Source: Parcubacteria group bacterium
GTDB lineage: Bacteria; Patescibacteriota; Minisyncoccia; UBA6257; JACRHW01
DNA: 54,461 bases
Direction: 5' to 3'
Assembly: GCA_016217555.1 (NCBI GenBank)
Contig: JACRHW010000004.1
Coordinates: forward strand, 1-54,461
Below, piece by piece: positions 10,461-41,534 of the stretch (its first letter is position 1; every line of letters starts with the position of its first letter). The position numbers were made by a program, and so were the translations under genes. Below the pieces are notes generated by a model that was given only the letters and a program-made list of their open reading frames with translations, was not told the DNA's origin and did no database searches.

Positions 10461-12905
10461 ATGAAAAAGAAGAAAAAAATACTACATTCGTTTCTCCTCT
10501 GGGGTCTTTTTTTATTGTTTGTAATTATCAGTGTAGGAAGTATTACCGTACTGTATATTTCTCTCGATCTTCCGCAAGTTGAACATTTCAGTGAGCGCCC
10601 CGTTCCCCAAACAACAAAGATATACGATAGAACGGGTCAGGTACTTTTGTATGATCTCTATGGAGACCAAAAAAGAACAACTATTTCTTTAAAAGAAGTT
10701 CCTCTTTATGTGCAACGTGCCACCCTCGCCTTAGAAGATAAAGATTTTTATAATCACTCCGCCTTTAGCATAAAAGGTATTGCTCGTTCATTACTCGTGA
10801 ATGTACGCGGAGGAGAGGCCCTTCAAGGTGGATCCACAATAACACAACAATTGGTTAAAAATGCCCTCCTTGATCCACAAAAAACAATTTCGAGAAAGAT
10901 AAAAGAGCTAATCCTTGCTTACAAACTTGAACAACAATATTCAAAGGATCAAATCCTTGAACTTTATCTCAACGAAATTCCTTATGGAGGAAACGCGTAC
11001 GGGATTGAGGTAGCAAGCCAAACGTATTTTGATAAATCAACAAAAGATCTTACCCTTGCAGAAGCGGCCACCCTTGCAGCACTCCCTAAGGCACCCACCT
11101 ACTACTCCCCTTATGGAAGTAATACAAAGAAATTATTTGAACGAGAACGTTATGGACTCAAAACAATGAAAGATCTCGGATGGATCACCGATGAAGAATA
11201 TAATAATGCCATTGCCGAAAAAATTACCTTCGTTCCTCAAAAAGTAGCTATTCGCGCCCCTCATTTTGTAATGATGGTTATTAACTATCTTAACACTCAG
11301 TATGGAGAAGATTTTGTACGAAATGCAGGATTAAAAGTAACAACCACGCTTGATTGGCCAACACAACAAATTGCTGAAGACGTTGTTAAAAAAGGGGCGG
11401 AACGTAATACTGAACTTTATAAAGGAACAAACGCTGCTTTACTTAGTGAAGATCCAAAAACAGGTCAGATTATCAGTCTTGTAGGATCTCGAGATTATTT
11501 TGATACAGCTCATGAAGGTAATTTTGATGTAACAACCCAAGGGTTACGCCAACCAGGTTCTTCATTTAAACCTATTGCCTATATTGCCGCCTTCAAAAAG
11601 GGATATTCTCCACAAACTGTTTTATTTGATCTTAAAACAGAGTTCGATACTACAAATGATCCTAATAATAGTTATCAACCAGAAAATTATGATCATATCT
11701 ATGGCGGTCCTGTAACACTCAAACGTGCTCTTGCAAATAGTTTAAACGTCCCAGCAGTAAAGGTGCTTTATCTTGCTGGAATGCAAAATGTAATAGACAC
11801 GGCCAAATCGTTTGGTATCACCACCTTAGGAGATTATCGACGCTATGGTCTCTCCCTTGTTCTCGGAGGAGGTGAGGTACACCTCATCGAAATGGTACAC
11901 GCCTATTCTGTCTTTTCACAGGAGGGTAATCAGCATAAACAACAATTTATTCTCAAGGTTGAATCAAAAGAGGAAAAAACACTCGAAGAATATCAGGATG
12001 AACAACACCAAGTAATAGAACCTGTATATACACAAGAAATCAATGATATTCTATCGGATGATGATGCACGTTCACGATTATTTACCTACCATGGCCCACT
12101 TTATTTTGATGGGTATGATGTTGCTGCAAAAACAGGAACAACCAACGATTATCGAGATGCATGGGTTATTGGATACACTCCAAATATTGTAACCGGTATT
12201 TGGGCAGGAAATAACGACAATACTCCTATGCAAAAAAATGCAGGCAGTATTCTTGCCGCAGTGCCTATTCTTCATGATTTTTATACACAAGTTCTCCCAA
12301 CACGTCCTAAAGAATTTTTTACAAAACCAACTCCCGTCTACAGTAATAAACCGATGTTAAATGGAGAATATATTACCGAAATATCCTCTCCCGATGGATC
12401 AATGCATAACGAAGTACATGATATTCTTTATTATGTAGATAGAAACAACCCACAAGGAGCAGAACCACTCAACCCTAATAGTGATGCACAATTTAAAAAT
12501 TGGGAGGAACCAGTTTTTGCATGGGTCGCACAAAACAATATCCAAATTAAAAAAACGAAAACATCCCCTATTATATCTCCTTTACCACCCTCCTCTCTTT
12601 TTGATGCTATTCAAAAACCTCCTGTCATTATTTCTCTTCCCATCACACTAGAAATAACAAATCCAGAAAATGGAGGTTATATTTATCTTCCTTTTGATGG
12701 AGATGTTTCCTTTAACCAAACTCCACAAAACGTAAAAATATTTTTTAATGATACACTTGTTCAAGACAATACTTCTCCACACATCACAGAACACTTTACT
12801 ATTTCAAGAGGAGAACTTTATATGCAAAACTCTCTTCGTATTGAGGCAACAAACGCTTCAGGAAAAACAACTTCAAAAGAAATAATCTTGTTTGGTAAAA
12901 ACTAG
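10461..12905 (+). CDS. bifunctional penicillin-binding protein 1A
   Basis: Class A PBP that polymerises lipid II and cross-links peptidoglycan at the outer face of the membrane. 814 residues: one membrane anchor at about 10-33; GT51 glycosyltransferase about 55-230 with catalytic Glu92 (EDKDFYNHS) and the GGSTITQQ motif at 123-130; transpeptidase about 320-620 with SxxK at 367-370 (SSFK), SLN at 427-429 and KTG at 557-559. A C-terminal beta-rich tail (about 715-814) resembles an accessory immunoglobulin-like domain. Its own promoter and the upstream terminator make it a single-gene unit, convergent with dnaN. All catalytic residues are intact, so this cell makes cross-linked peptidoglycan. 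Confidence 0.96.
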   Translation: MKKKKKILHSFLLWGLFLLFVIISVGSITVLYISLDLPQVEHFSERPVPQTTKIYDRTGQVLLYDLYGDQKRTTISLKEVPLYVQRATLALEDKDFYNHSAFSIKGIARSLLVNVRGGEALQGGSTITQQLVKNALLDPQKTISRKIKELILAYKLEQQYSKDQILELYLNEIPYGGNAYGIEVASQTYFDKSTKDLTLAEAATLAALPKAPTYYSPYGSNTKKLFERERYGLKTMKDLGWITDEEYNNAIAEKITFVPQKVAIRAPHFVMMVINYLNTQYGEDFVRNAGLKVTTTLDWPTQQIAEDVVKKGAERNTELYKGTNAALLSEDPKTGQIISLVGSRDYFDTAHEGNFDVTTQGLRQPGSSFKPIAYIAAFKKGYSPQTVLFDLKTEFDTTNDPNNSYQPENYDHIYGGPVTLKRALANSLNVPAVKVLYLAGMQNVIDTAKSFGITTLGDYRRYGLSLVLGGGEVHLIEMVHAYSVFSQEGNQHKQQFILKVESKEEKTLEEYQDEQHQVIEPVYTQEINDILSDDDARSRLFTYHGPLYFDGYDVAAKTGTTNDYRDAWVIGYTPNIVTGIWAGNNDNTPMQKNAGSILAAVPILHDFYTQVLPTRPKEFFTKPTPVYSNKPMLNGEYITEISSPDGSMHNEVHDILYYVDRNNPQGAEPLNPNSDAQFKNWEEPVFAWVAQNNIQIKKTKTSPIISPLPPSSLFDAIQKPPVIISLPITLEITNPENGGYIYLPFDGDVSFNQTPQNVKIFFNDTLVQDNTSPHITEHFTISRGELYMQNSLRIEATNASGKTTSKEIILFGKN

Positions 12906-37923: not shown

Positions 37924-39036
37924 ATGAATGAGACGCGACTACAATCTATAGGTGCTCGATTATGGGGGCTCTTTAAGAAGGAGTCTTTTCCTCTTTTTGT
38001 ACGCATGAGGGCATTTTTGTTGTCATTTTGCAGAAAGTGTCTTACCTTATATCCCGAAGAAGTTTTTTTAAGCACGATAGCGGTTCTCGCTATCGGTTTT
38101 TATTTCTTGCACACCGATACGTTTGATCAAAAGAATCTTACCACGGAGTTGGTGCAATCAGTATTTGCTTATGATTCGAATGATACCTCAGAACAATCCG
38201 CTTTTCTTGGTACCGCAAGTCCGCTAAACCCAGAATATTATGATTCCTCGGGTGAGGATGATTCGGCGCTTCAGACCGAAATTATCGACGACGCCTTGAA
38301 GGCAAATACCGCACCTGTGATGGCAACCACTGACAAAGATGGAGTGAAGGTGTACACCGTACGTAAAGGCGACACCATTGCAGAGATTGCTACGTATTTT
38401 GGAGTAAGTGCCGACACTATTGTTTGGGAAAACAATCTTGCTCGTCGTCAAAAATTACAACAAGGCCAGCATCTCACTATTCTTCCTGTAAGTGGTGTTC
38501 GACACGAGGTGGCAAAAGGAGAGACCCTTGAGAGTATTGCTACACAGTTTGGCGTCGAAGTAGGAGAGATAATTACTTATAACAAGCTTATGCACGGTAC
38601 CATAAAGGAGGGTGATGTTCTTATTCTTCCTGACGGGACGATGCCTTATGTAAAGCAGAACATTTCATCTTCTAAAAATCTTGTAAATATACGAGGATAC
38701 TTTGGAGCACCGACGGTGGGATATAATCAGGGGGTGTTGCATGCGACAAATGCAGTTGATATTGCAAATGCATGTGGTACCAATGTCGTCGCTGCAGCAG
38801 AAGGATTGGTTGTTGAGGCGAAAAGTGGATGGAATGGAGGATATGGAAATTATATAAAGATAGAACACCCCAACGGAGTGTTTACAAAATATGCACATCT
38901 TGCGAGTCTCGTTGCTGGGTATGGGGACTATGTAGCGAAAGGACAGGTGGTGGGGTTGATGGGGAATACGGGCAAGGCTACGGGGTGCCATCTCCACTTT
39001 GAAGTTCTTGGCGCAAAAAACCCATTTACTAAATAA
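37924..39036 (+). CDS. LysM-M23 cell-wall peptidase
   Basis: 370 residues: basic start, membrane helix at about 44-62 (FLSTIAVLAIGFYFLHT), acidic linker, two LysM peptidoglycan-binding domains (YTVRKGDTIAEIATYFGV at about 140 and HEVAKGETLESIATQFGV at about 190), then an M23 (LytM) domain with the zinc ligands in HATNAVDIA and HLHFE. All M23 ligands seem present, so it is likely an active endopeptidase rather than an EnvC-like activator. It faces outside, and acts with PBP1A and the LDT/DD-CPase in wall remodelling. Confidence 0.94.
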   Translation: MNETRLQSIGARLWGLFKKESFPLFVRMRAFLLSFCRKCLTLYPEEVFLSTIAVLAIGFYFLHTDTFDQKNLTTELVQSVFAYDSNDTSEQSAFLGTASPLNPEYYDSSGEDDSALQTEIIDDALKANTAPVMATTDKDGVKVYTVRKGDTIAEIATYFGVSADTIVWENNLARRQKLQQGQHLTILPVSGVRHEVAKGETLESIATQFGVEVGEIITYNKLMHGTIKEGDVLILPDGTMPYVKQNISSSKNLVNIRGYFGAPTVGYNQGVLHATNAVDIANACGTNVVAAAEGLVVEAKSGWNGGYGNYIKIEHPNGVFTKYAHLASLVAGYGDYVAKGQVVGLMGNTGKATGCHLHFEVLGAKNPFTK

Positions 39037-39228: not shown

Positions 39229-39930
39229 ATGACTACTAATCACATGGCACCAAATAAGGGGAAACGGTTAGAAATTAACGTGGGGGGAAATTTGTATTTA
39301 CGATTCCCTATCAAAACACATATTATTGTATCGGGCGATGATGTTTTGGAAGTGGTTAAAAAATATGTGATACCACACGCAAAGGATGGCGATTTTATTT
39401 TTATAAGTGAAAAGATTGTTGCTATCTCGCAAGGGCGCGCATTTCCGATTCGTGATATTAAGGCATCACGGCTTGCGCAGTTTTTAGTACGATTTGTGCA
39501 CAAGTCACCTTATGGTATTGGTCTCGGAAGTCCTTGGACGATGGAGCTTGCTATTCGAGAAGTTGGCGCCATACGAATACTTTTTGCTGCGGGCGTTGCG
39601 GCGGTTACAAAACCTTTTGGAATAAGGGGGTTATTCTATAAAATTTGTGGCAAAGAGGTAGCAGCGATTGATGACCCTTGTGCCTATACATTGCCACCCT
39701 ATAATGAATATGCAAAATTGGGGCCAAGGAATCCTAATGGTGTTGCGTGCGAGCTACAAAAGAAATTACACCATGAGGTTGTCGTTATCGACGCAAACGA
39801 CTTAGGAGTTTCTGTGTTAGGAAAGTCTGATCGTACTATGAGCGATACATTTATCGAAGCGGTATTTAAGGATAATCCGCTAGGTCAATCAAGTGAACAA
39901 ACACCGCTCTGTCTTGTGAGAAAGGTCTAG
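39229..39930 (+). CDS. CofE-like (F420-0:gamma-glutamyl ligase family) protein
   Basis: 233 residues resembling coenzyme F420-0:L-glutamate ligase. The N-terminus has IKTHIIVSGDDVLEVVKKYVIPHAKDGDFIFISEKIVAISQGRAFPI, matching the family's KT..i..GDdl...i......l.dGDil.isekivsisegr. Later GKEVAAIDDPCAYTLPP and NGVACELQKKLHHEVVVIDANDLGVSVLG are typical of CofE-like proteins. True CofE adds Glu to F420-0 with GTP. No other F420 genes are visible and CPR bacteria are not known to make F420, so the substrate is probably another acid. Flanked by structured elements at 39041 and 39935. Confidence 0.88.
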   Translation: MTTNHMAPNKGKRLEINVGGNLYLRFPIKTHIIVSGDDVLEVVKKYVIPHAKDGDFIFISEKIVAISQGRAFPIRDIKASRLAQFLVRFVHKSPYGIGLGSPWTMELAIREVGAIRILFAAGVAAVTKPFGIRGLFYKICGKEVAAIDDPCAYTLPPYNEYAKLGPRNPNGVACELQKKLHHEVVVIDANDLGVSVLGKSDRTMSDTFIEAVFKDNPLGQSSEQTPLCLVRKV

Positions 39931-40178: not shown

Positions 40179-41534
40179 TTAGTAATTATTTTTTATCCAG
40201 TCGTAAAGCGTGCGTACATCAGTTGCATTGTCTTTTGAGTCTAAGATGATAATGGCGATTGGGCGTTTTTTGTCTCCTTTGGGCATTTCAAAGACGGCAA
40301 GCATCGTTTCACCCGCTGATTCTGTTTTACCCACTTTCCCTCCTACAAACTCGGGGTCATCTGAAAAGAGGTTGAAATTTTGGAGATCATCAAAGATGGG
40401 TGCGCCATACGTTGCAGAGCGTAATTTTCCTGTTGTAAATTTTAAAATGAAGCTTCTGTTGTGATAGAGATATTTTGCAAGATTAAAAAGGTCTTCAGCA
40501 GAGGCGGTATTGTCTTTACTAATCCCCGCGGCGTCCACAAAATGTGCGTGTTCCATGCCAATCGCTTTTGCTTTTTGATCCATGAGACTCGTAAAATAAC
40601 TATTTCCCAGAGAGGAGCTTATGGTAAGTGCTGCCTCGTTCGAGGACTCAAGGAGAAGCGGATAGAGAAGCTGAAAAAGTGAGATGTGCTCTCCCGTCTT
40701 AAGCCTTGGTTTTGACGTATATACAAGAGATTGTTTCGGTACGGTCATCACCTTCTCGATATTAATATATTCTGTGGCGACAAGAGCGGTAATGAGTTTG
40801 GTAATAGAGGCGATGGGAATGACTTCTTTTGGAAGATGTTCCGTAAAAACGAAGTTATTATCAAGATCCACCGCAAGGTAGTGAGATGCTGATAATTGTG
40901 GGGGTTCTTTATGATAAGAAAATTGGTCGTTCTCAAATGATTTTTCAAAGACAAGCACGGGGGTTCCTACGCTTGCGAGGTTATATATTTGTTCTGCATC
41001 TCCGGTTGAAAGACGAATACAGCCACCAGAGTAGCTGGATGCTACGGGGGTGCCATCGGGATAATAGGGCCATCCATGGATAAAAAAGTTGCCTTGAAAT
41101 ACCATACTCCACGGTTGATACACCTTTCCAAATCCTGAAAAATGATTTTTCTTTTTTAGCTCTACCTTATAAAGCCCTGCTGGAGTCTCCCACCACGATC
41201 CTTCTCGTCCTTTTGCAAGGATGGGAACCTGAAGTTTTTGGACTCCGTTTTCATAAAATGTAATTTGCATGGCAGAGAGATTTGCTTCGATAAAGGTCGT
41301 GCGATTATCTATAAATTTTTTATGAACATTTTGAAAAAAATCTGCATTTCCAAGGTCAGGCCAACTCCCAAAATTTAAATCAGTATGGTTTCCACCTGCC
41401 GGCCTTGTGTCAAAGGGAAGCCGATAGAGTTCCCTATCATTTTGTGAATACCAGGCATAAAAAAATATACCTCCAGTGAGAAGCGTGAGAATGAGGATGA
41501 CTATATAAAGAGGAATGGGGGTGCGGAGAGTCAT
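40179..41534 (-). CDS. L,D-transpeptidase / D,D-carboxypeptidase fusion
   Basis: 451 residues with two wall enzymes in one chain. A membrane helix at about 8-28 is followed by a YkuD domain (about 85-197) with His153 in HGWPYYPDG and nucleophile Cys172 in SGGCIRLS. Then comes an S11 carboxypeptidase domain (about 215-445) with SITK at 243-246, SSN at 297-299 and KVG in place of KTG at 400-402. D,D-carboxypeptidases convert pentapeptides to tetrapeptides, the donor for L,D-transpeptidases, so the two active sites could work in series. The transpeptidase forms 3-3 cross-links that beta-lactams such as ampicillin do not block well. Exported; leftward, single gene. Confidence 0.95.
   Translation of the reverse strand: MTLRTPIPLYIVILILTLLTGGIFFYAWYSQNDRELYRLPFDTRPAGGNHTDLNFGSWPDLGNADFFQNVHKKFIDNRTTFIEANLSAMQITFYENGVQKLQVPILAKGREGSWWETPAGLYKVELKKKNHFSGFGKVYQPWSMVFQGNFFIHGWPYYPDGTPVASSYSGGCIRLSTGDAEQIYNLASVGTPVLVFEKSFENDQFSYHKEPPQLSASHYLAVDLDNNFVFTEHLPKEVIPIASITKLITALVATEYINIEKVMTVPKQSLVYTSKPRLKTGEHISLFQLLYPLLLESSNEAALTISSSLGNSYFTSLMDQKAKAIGMEHAHFVDAAGISKDNTASAEDLFNLAKYLYHNRSFILKFTTGKLRSATYGAPIFDDLQNFNLFSDDPEFVGGKVGKTESAGETMLAVFEMPKGDKKRPIAIIILDSKDNATDVRTLYDWIKNNY

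Follow-up and report, generated by a model that had tools for sequence, protein, structure and literature searches.

The minus strand of the window, by which we mean the whole 54,461-nucleotide stretch of DNA analysed here, carries one open frame from position 41534 to position 40179 that runs from ATG to TAA and encodes 451 amino acids; the plus strand of the same interval is full of stop codons. The features of the gene and its product are as follows.

40179–41534, minus strand: fusion gene, 451 amino acids, with membrane anchor, YkuD and S11 parts (open frame, Pfam, full-length homologues)
41439–41510, minus strand: predicted membrane helix, residues 9–32 (AlphaFold2 helix and hydrophobic sequence)
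40950–41297, minus strand: YkuD L,D-transpeptidase domain, residues 80–195 (Pfam PF03734, E 1.5e-16)
40185–40910, minus strand: S11 peptidase domain, residues 209–450 (Pfam PF00768 at 209–414, E 1.2e-27; fold to about residue 450)
41076–41078, minus strand: H153, catalytic histidine of the HGW motif (invariant in 90/90 fusions)
41019–41021, minus strand: C172, catalytic cysteine of SGGCIR (invariant in 90/90 fusions)
40797–40808, minus strand: SxxK motif, S243-I-T-K246 (aligned to DacA S44/K47; kept in 77/90 fusions)
40638–40646, minus strand: SxN motif, S297-S298-N299 (aligned to DacA S110/N112)
40329–40337, minus strand: KTG box, read as K400-V401-G402 (V401 aligned to DacA T214)
40227–40229, minus strand: N436, at the site of DacA R248 (alignment to DacA)

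The Pfam match to PF03734 spans positions 2–146 of 146 (61.7 bits; cut-off 23.4), and that to PF00768 scores 97.4 bits (cut-off 27.6). The AlphaFold2 model, whose mean confidence (mean pLDDT 86.8, pTM 0.72) says nothing on the relative placement of the YkuD and S11 domains, consists of a helix at residues 9–32, a poorly ordered stretch at 33–51 and then two folded domains. Inspection of the sequence by eye revealed no obvious signal-peptidase site; the protein therefore looks membrane-anchored and outward-facing rather than secreted. An earlier note on this DNA had described one exported chain with both domains: the single chain holds up, and the predicted helix 9–32 fits an outward orientation, the chain looking anchored rather than secreted. 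The note's readings of H153, C172, S243, K246, SSN and KVG all agree with the motif positions in the 451-residue translation. On the other strand, past the 3' end of the fusion gene at a distance of approximately 1.1 kb (37924–39036, plus), lies a gene for a LysM-LysM-M23 protein, probably another wall hydrolase; at 39229–39930 (plus) this small Patescibacteria genome has a match to F420_ligase (CofE-like).

Homologues with the same domain order, approximately 30–68% identical over most of their length, are found in dozens of independent assemblies. The fusion is therefore not an assembly artefact joining two genes, and the worry over such a sequencing artefact that the earlier note had voiced falls away. 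A protein scan of 84,980 species genomes returned 73 loci, whose titles name Vogel-, Colwell-, Lipton-, Wolfe-, Kaiser-, Zambryski-, Yonath-, Taylor-, Nomura-, Sung- and Giovannonibacteria, other Patescibacteria, or simply ‘bacterium’. The fusion is carried by 23 of 101 relatives, and when 380 genomes spread evenly over the phylum were sampled, full-length matches were confined to the class of the window; the plasmids scanned yielded no match. The earlier note had suggested seeking the domain pair in CPR and other phyla: many Patescibacteria have it, and outside them the species-genome scan, the phylum sample and the plasmids gave no named other phylum, though an independent YkuD-S11 fusion may exist there. 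Among the open-access papers searched, we found none that describes the fusion. The residue counts given here refer to 90 distinct YkuD-S11 fusions from Patescibacteria; one row, L101, was a spurious YkuD match and was excluded from both counts, 71 and 90 (91 with L101).

Variations on the architecture and its surroundings were also observed. One locus encodes a triple YkuD-S11-PGA_cap fusion (L053, 5755–8193), two others have open frames of about the same length (L058, L064), and another carries S11-PGA_cap without YkuD (L111). A one-strand gene order recurs in which the YkuD-S11 fusion is accompanied by scpA, an scpB-like gene, a stand-alone S11 and an mraY-like gene (L006, L008, L021, L022, L033, L039, L057 and others).

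H153 and C172 are invariant across the 90 fusions, and the active-site form S-G-G-C-x-R is kept in nearly all of them. Judged by these sequences, the YkuD half is the part held by selection everywhere, and we think that the fusion protein is primarily an L,D-transpeptidase, with an attached module that would produce or present the tetrapeptide donor.

The S11 half presents a different balance of kept and altered residues. In alignment with E. coli DacA, residues S243, K246, S297, N299, K400 and G402 correspond to S44, K47, S110, N112, K213 and G215, while V401 falls on T214 and N436 on R248. We take T214 and R248 to bind the C-terminal carboxylate of the substrate in PBP5-like enzymes; R248 is presumably the carboxylate-binding residue in both PBP5 and K15, and the structure matches of the S11 part include 1esi, in which K15, a related enzyme, carries the R248L mutation. 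The window protein thus has KVG where an S11 peptidase has a K-T/S-G box, and asparagine where a DacA-type D,D-carboxypeptidase has arginine. By fold and profile it still belongs to S11, which does not in itself make it a classical active S11 peptidase.

Nor is KVG a peculiarity of the window protein. In the 71 fused S11 domains that retain all of SxxK, SxN and K-G, position 401 is V, I, M, N, S, T, A or R, with V the commonest. Threonine or serine occupies it in 14 of these 71 domains, their motifs otherwise intact, compared with 60 of the 65 S11 domains that stand alone in the phylum (Fisher p 6e-19), and arginine occupies position 436 in 26 of 71 against 61 of 65 (Fisher p 5e-13); both tests ignore shared descent, and the stand-alone set, collected by similarity to the fusion protein, may bias the comparison. 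On the tree, position 401 (T/S versus other) requires at least 14 changes and position 436 (R versus other) requires 12. Coupled loss of T401 and R436 was considered and dropped, an independent-pairs test on the tree not being significant; by count, 10 of 14 T/S proteins keep the arginine and 38 of 49 with a hydrophobic residue are without it. The fused domains are almost a single group in the S11 tree, inside which five stand-alone domains also fall. Early-branching fusions mostly have T, S or N at 401 together with Arg at 436, while a large derived group that includes the window protein mostly has V, I or M at 401 and no Arg at 436. The suspicion, raised in the earlier note, that KVG matters is thus supported and widened: the window protein and most of its relatives have changed both the Thr of KTG and the Arg at R248.

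Structural and profile comparisons place the S11 half near endopeptidases. Among the structures matched by the S11 part are both D,D-endopeptidases (6muq, 6azi) and D,D-carboxypeptidases (3mfd, 4k91); the top Foldseek matches are 6muq, 6azi and 3mfd (E about 5e-17 to 8e-17), with the murein D,D-endopeptidases 6muq and 6azi on top. The best NCBIfam match of the fusion is the D-Ala-D-Ala endopeptidase NF008668 (PRK11669), at 93 bits far below the cut-off of 294. By fold and by this sub-threshold profile, the closest S11 relatives are enzymes like E. coli PBP7/PbpG, an S11 murein D,D-endopeptidase, which likewise has no Arg at the R248 position (His); unlike the fused S11 domain, with which it shares approximately 27% identity, PbpG keeps KTG and is unfused. 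Since SxxK, SxN and K-G are retained, the S11 site of the window protein is probably still active, and it probably recognises its substrate differently, in a manner more endopeptidase-like than that of DacA. The label D,D-carboxypeptidase given in the earlier note is therefore half right: the S11 domain is genuine, whereas its residue pattern fits an altered or endopeptidase-like specificity better than that of a carboxypeptidase.

Beyond these altered anchors, the S11 active site itself has been lost repeatedly. The serine or lysine is gone from 13 of 90 fusions in which the domain is still present, for example L041 (LLSK), L048 (AFGQ), L070 (GLSA) and L110 (EIVS), versus none of the 65 stand-alone S11 domains. 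When the motif columns are left out in building the tree, six changes are needed, at least four of them on supported branches. The dead domain of L041 retains the S11 fold, and the L041/L044 S11 pair, the one unsaturated pair (dS 0.49), gives a dN/dS of about 0.11, which suggests that the dead domain is kept for some purpose. Catalysis by S11 is therefore not essential to the fusion. The earlier note had seen an inactive S11 domain as fatal to its proposal; the S11 site of the window protein, with SxxK, SxN and K-G kept, is probably active, while the S11 halves of the 13 relatives cannot be serine peptidases. The sequences point to a history in which the S11 half, at first a normal D,D-peptidase, altered its substrate anchors and later lost catalysis in several lineages.

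The same YkuD subfamily has a second partner. Matches to YkuD without S11, considered as further degenerate S11 fusions, were ruled out as such because their C-terminal half is an M23 metallopeptidase; this joining occurs in 17 of 101 relatives (L137–L153), in Paceibacteria genomes of the window's order without the YkuD-S11 fusion. The two architectures share the YkuD subfamily, the single chain and a C-terminal peptidoglycan peptidase, but the M23 partner is unrelated to S11 and no genome of the 101 carries both (23 versus 17; Fisher p 0.008, with no correction for descent). A single change separates S11 and M23 partners on the YkuD tree. The M23 family is known for D,D-endopeptidases. Whether the enzyme is a D,D-carboxypeptidase or a D,D-endopeptidase (S11 or M23), its action leaves a tetrapeptide stem, which L,D-transpeptidases use as donor. 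Either partner would thus leave the tetrapeptide donor, and the swap points to tetrapeptide release as the shared step.

A separate observation concerns the genetic code of some of these genomes. In-frame TGA codons occur at conserved tryptophan positions in YkuD-M23 genes and neighbouring trmD- and mraY-like genes, and also inside S11 (L105, L142, L152, L153; L201:1501-1575), and UGA is likely recoded to tryptophan in four genomes of one family of the window's order (G027, G046, G062, G077). None of these four has a prfB (RF2) match above the cut-off, two of them being only 55–68% complete, and prfB matches are present in the window's own genome (G000) and in G063, G078 and G025. In addition to tRNA-Trp(CCA), G027 encodes a tRNA of normal length that has the anticodon UCA and G73. 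A 2021 screen (10.7554/eLife.71402) listed bacterial UGA to Trp only for Mycoplasmatales, Entomoplasmatales and insect symbionts; it gives Gracilibacteria and Absconditabacteria for UGA to Gly. In G025, which is 99% complete, release-factor genes contain in-frame TAG and one TGA (G025:C9:7196-8209, G025:C8:4098-4862); these in-frame stops may reflect a frameshift, a sequencing error or recoding.

The genome that carries the fusion gene encodes other wall enzymes as well. Elsewhere in the same genome, a stand-alone S11 protein (G000:C13:74625-75275) shares SxxK and SxN with the fused domain and differs from it in having KTG and Arg intact and no YkuD half; the fused S11 is therefore not the only one in the cell. 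A separate S11 is likewise present in 22 of the 23 relatives that carry the YkuD-S11 fusion. A second YkuD protein is present too, single-domain and bearing the canonical SHGC motif. The genome further encodes a D-Ala-D-Ala ligase and three PBP transpeptidase domains, of which one lies in the window at 11451–12248; from the PBP domains and the ligase, 4-3 cross-links and pentapeptides are to be expected.

Taken together, a model emerges for the fusion protein, the activity, substrate and coupling of which we infer. The best explanation, one to which we give about an even chance, is a membrane-anchored L,D-transpeptidase with its own active, donor-supplying S11 module. The S11 module would cleave after D-Ala4 of the stem peptide to leave a tetrapeptide, either by trimming pentapeptides or, likelier given the residues, by opening 4-3 cross-links; the YkuD cysteine would then take the tetrapeptide stem at mDAP3 and form an adjacent 3-3 cross-link. 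With T214 replaced by V and R248 by N, the window S11 would no longer grip the C-terminal carboxylate of its substrate in the manner of DacA, though acyl-enzyme chemistry would probably still be used, in keeping with the retention of SxxK, SxN and K-G in 71 domains while position 401 varies. In some relatives, the S11 module would be a non-catalytic binding or structural part and the donor would come from a separate S11 enzyme. E. coli offers a precedent: L,D-transpeptidation driven by YcbB/LdtD depends there on PBP5/DacA, which makes its tetrapeptide donor (PMC5089857). The dependence of an L,D-transpeptidase on a D,D-carboxypeptidase would be similar here, with one chain in place of two proteins and V401/N436 in place of T214/R248. 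The earlier note's idea that the S11 product feeds YkuD therefore has a genuine, conserved fusion and the E. coli donor logic behind it (PMC5089857).

Several observations count against the best explanation: i) the 13 relatives without the S11 nucleophile or lysine keep the domain, ii) the separate S11 with KTG and Arg could supply the donor, and iii) YkuD activity could alternatively be that of an L,D-carboxypeptidase or of protein attachment to the wall. It also counts against this reading that, to our knowledge, PBP7-type endopeptidases do not typically have a hydrophobic residue at this place in their KTG box. A more elaborate form, which we put forward only tentatively, is a one-chain cross-link converter: S11 (or M23) would open 4-3 cross-links and YkuD would make 3-3 cross-links from the freed tetrapeptide, with two unrelated endopeptidase types recruited to the same L,D-transpeptidase and S11 turning, in several lineages, into a module that reads stem peptides without catalysis.

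The alternative that survives best, possible if somewhat doubtful, is that the S11 half is a pseudoenzyme or nearly so even in the window protein, a module that binds or positions stem peptides for YkuD and is losing catalysis. The independent losses confined to fused domains, the retained fold and purifying selection of dead domains and the eroded anchors of most fused members all speak for this; the dN/dS, however, comes from a single unsaturated pair, 71 fused domains keep SxxK, SxN and K-G together, and a binding-only role would predict drift of the Ser and Lys in KVG lineages as well. Distinctly less probable is the proposal of the earlier note, a plain D,D-carboxypeptidase coupled to the L,D-transpeptidase with KVG of little consequence: it shares the donor logic of DacA and YcbB (PMC5089857), all catalytic motifs are present and early-branching fusions mostly have T, S or N with Arg, but the window protein and most of the family have replaced the equivalents of T214 and R248, both of which are still found in the stand-alone paralogue. 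It is very improbable that YkuD acts outside 3-3 cross-linking, for example in L,D-carboxypeptidase trimming or surface-protein anchoring, with S11 merely binding the wall; L,D-carboxypeptidase, endopeptidase and protein-anchoring activities are reported for YkuD proteins (PMC12729407), but the near-universal S-G-G-C-x-R form and the alternative fusion to a peptidoglycan endopeptidase, which suggests work on cross-links, argue against it.

Very little work has been done on how Patescibacteria remodel their walls. If donor production and 3-3 cross-linking are physically linked, as in the membrane-anchored L,D-transpeptidase with its own S11 module favoured here, this would illustrate how steps performed elsewhere by separate enzymes are coupled in a minimal genome. 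The S11 sites that have died repeatedly while their fold was kept provide a natural series on the post-enzyme role of the penicillin-binding fold.
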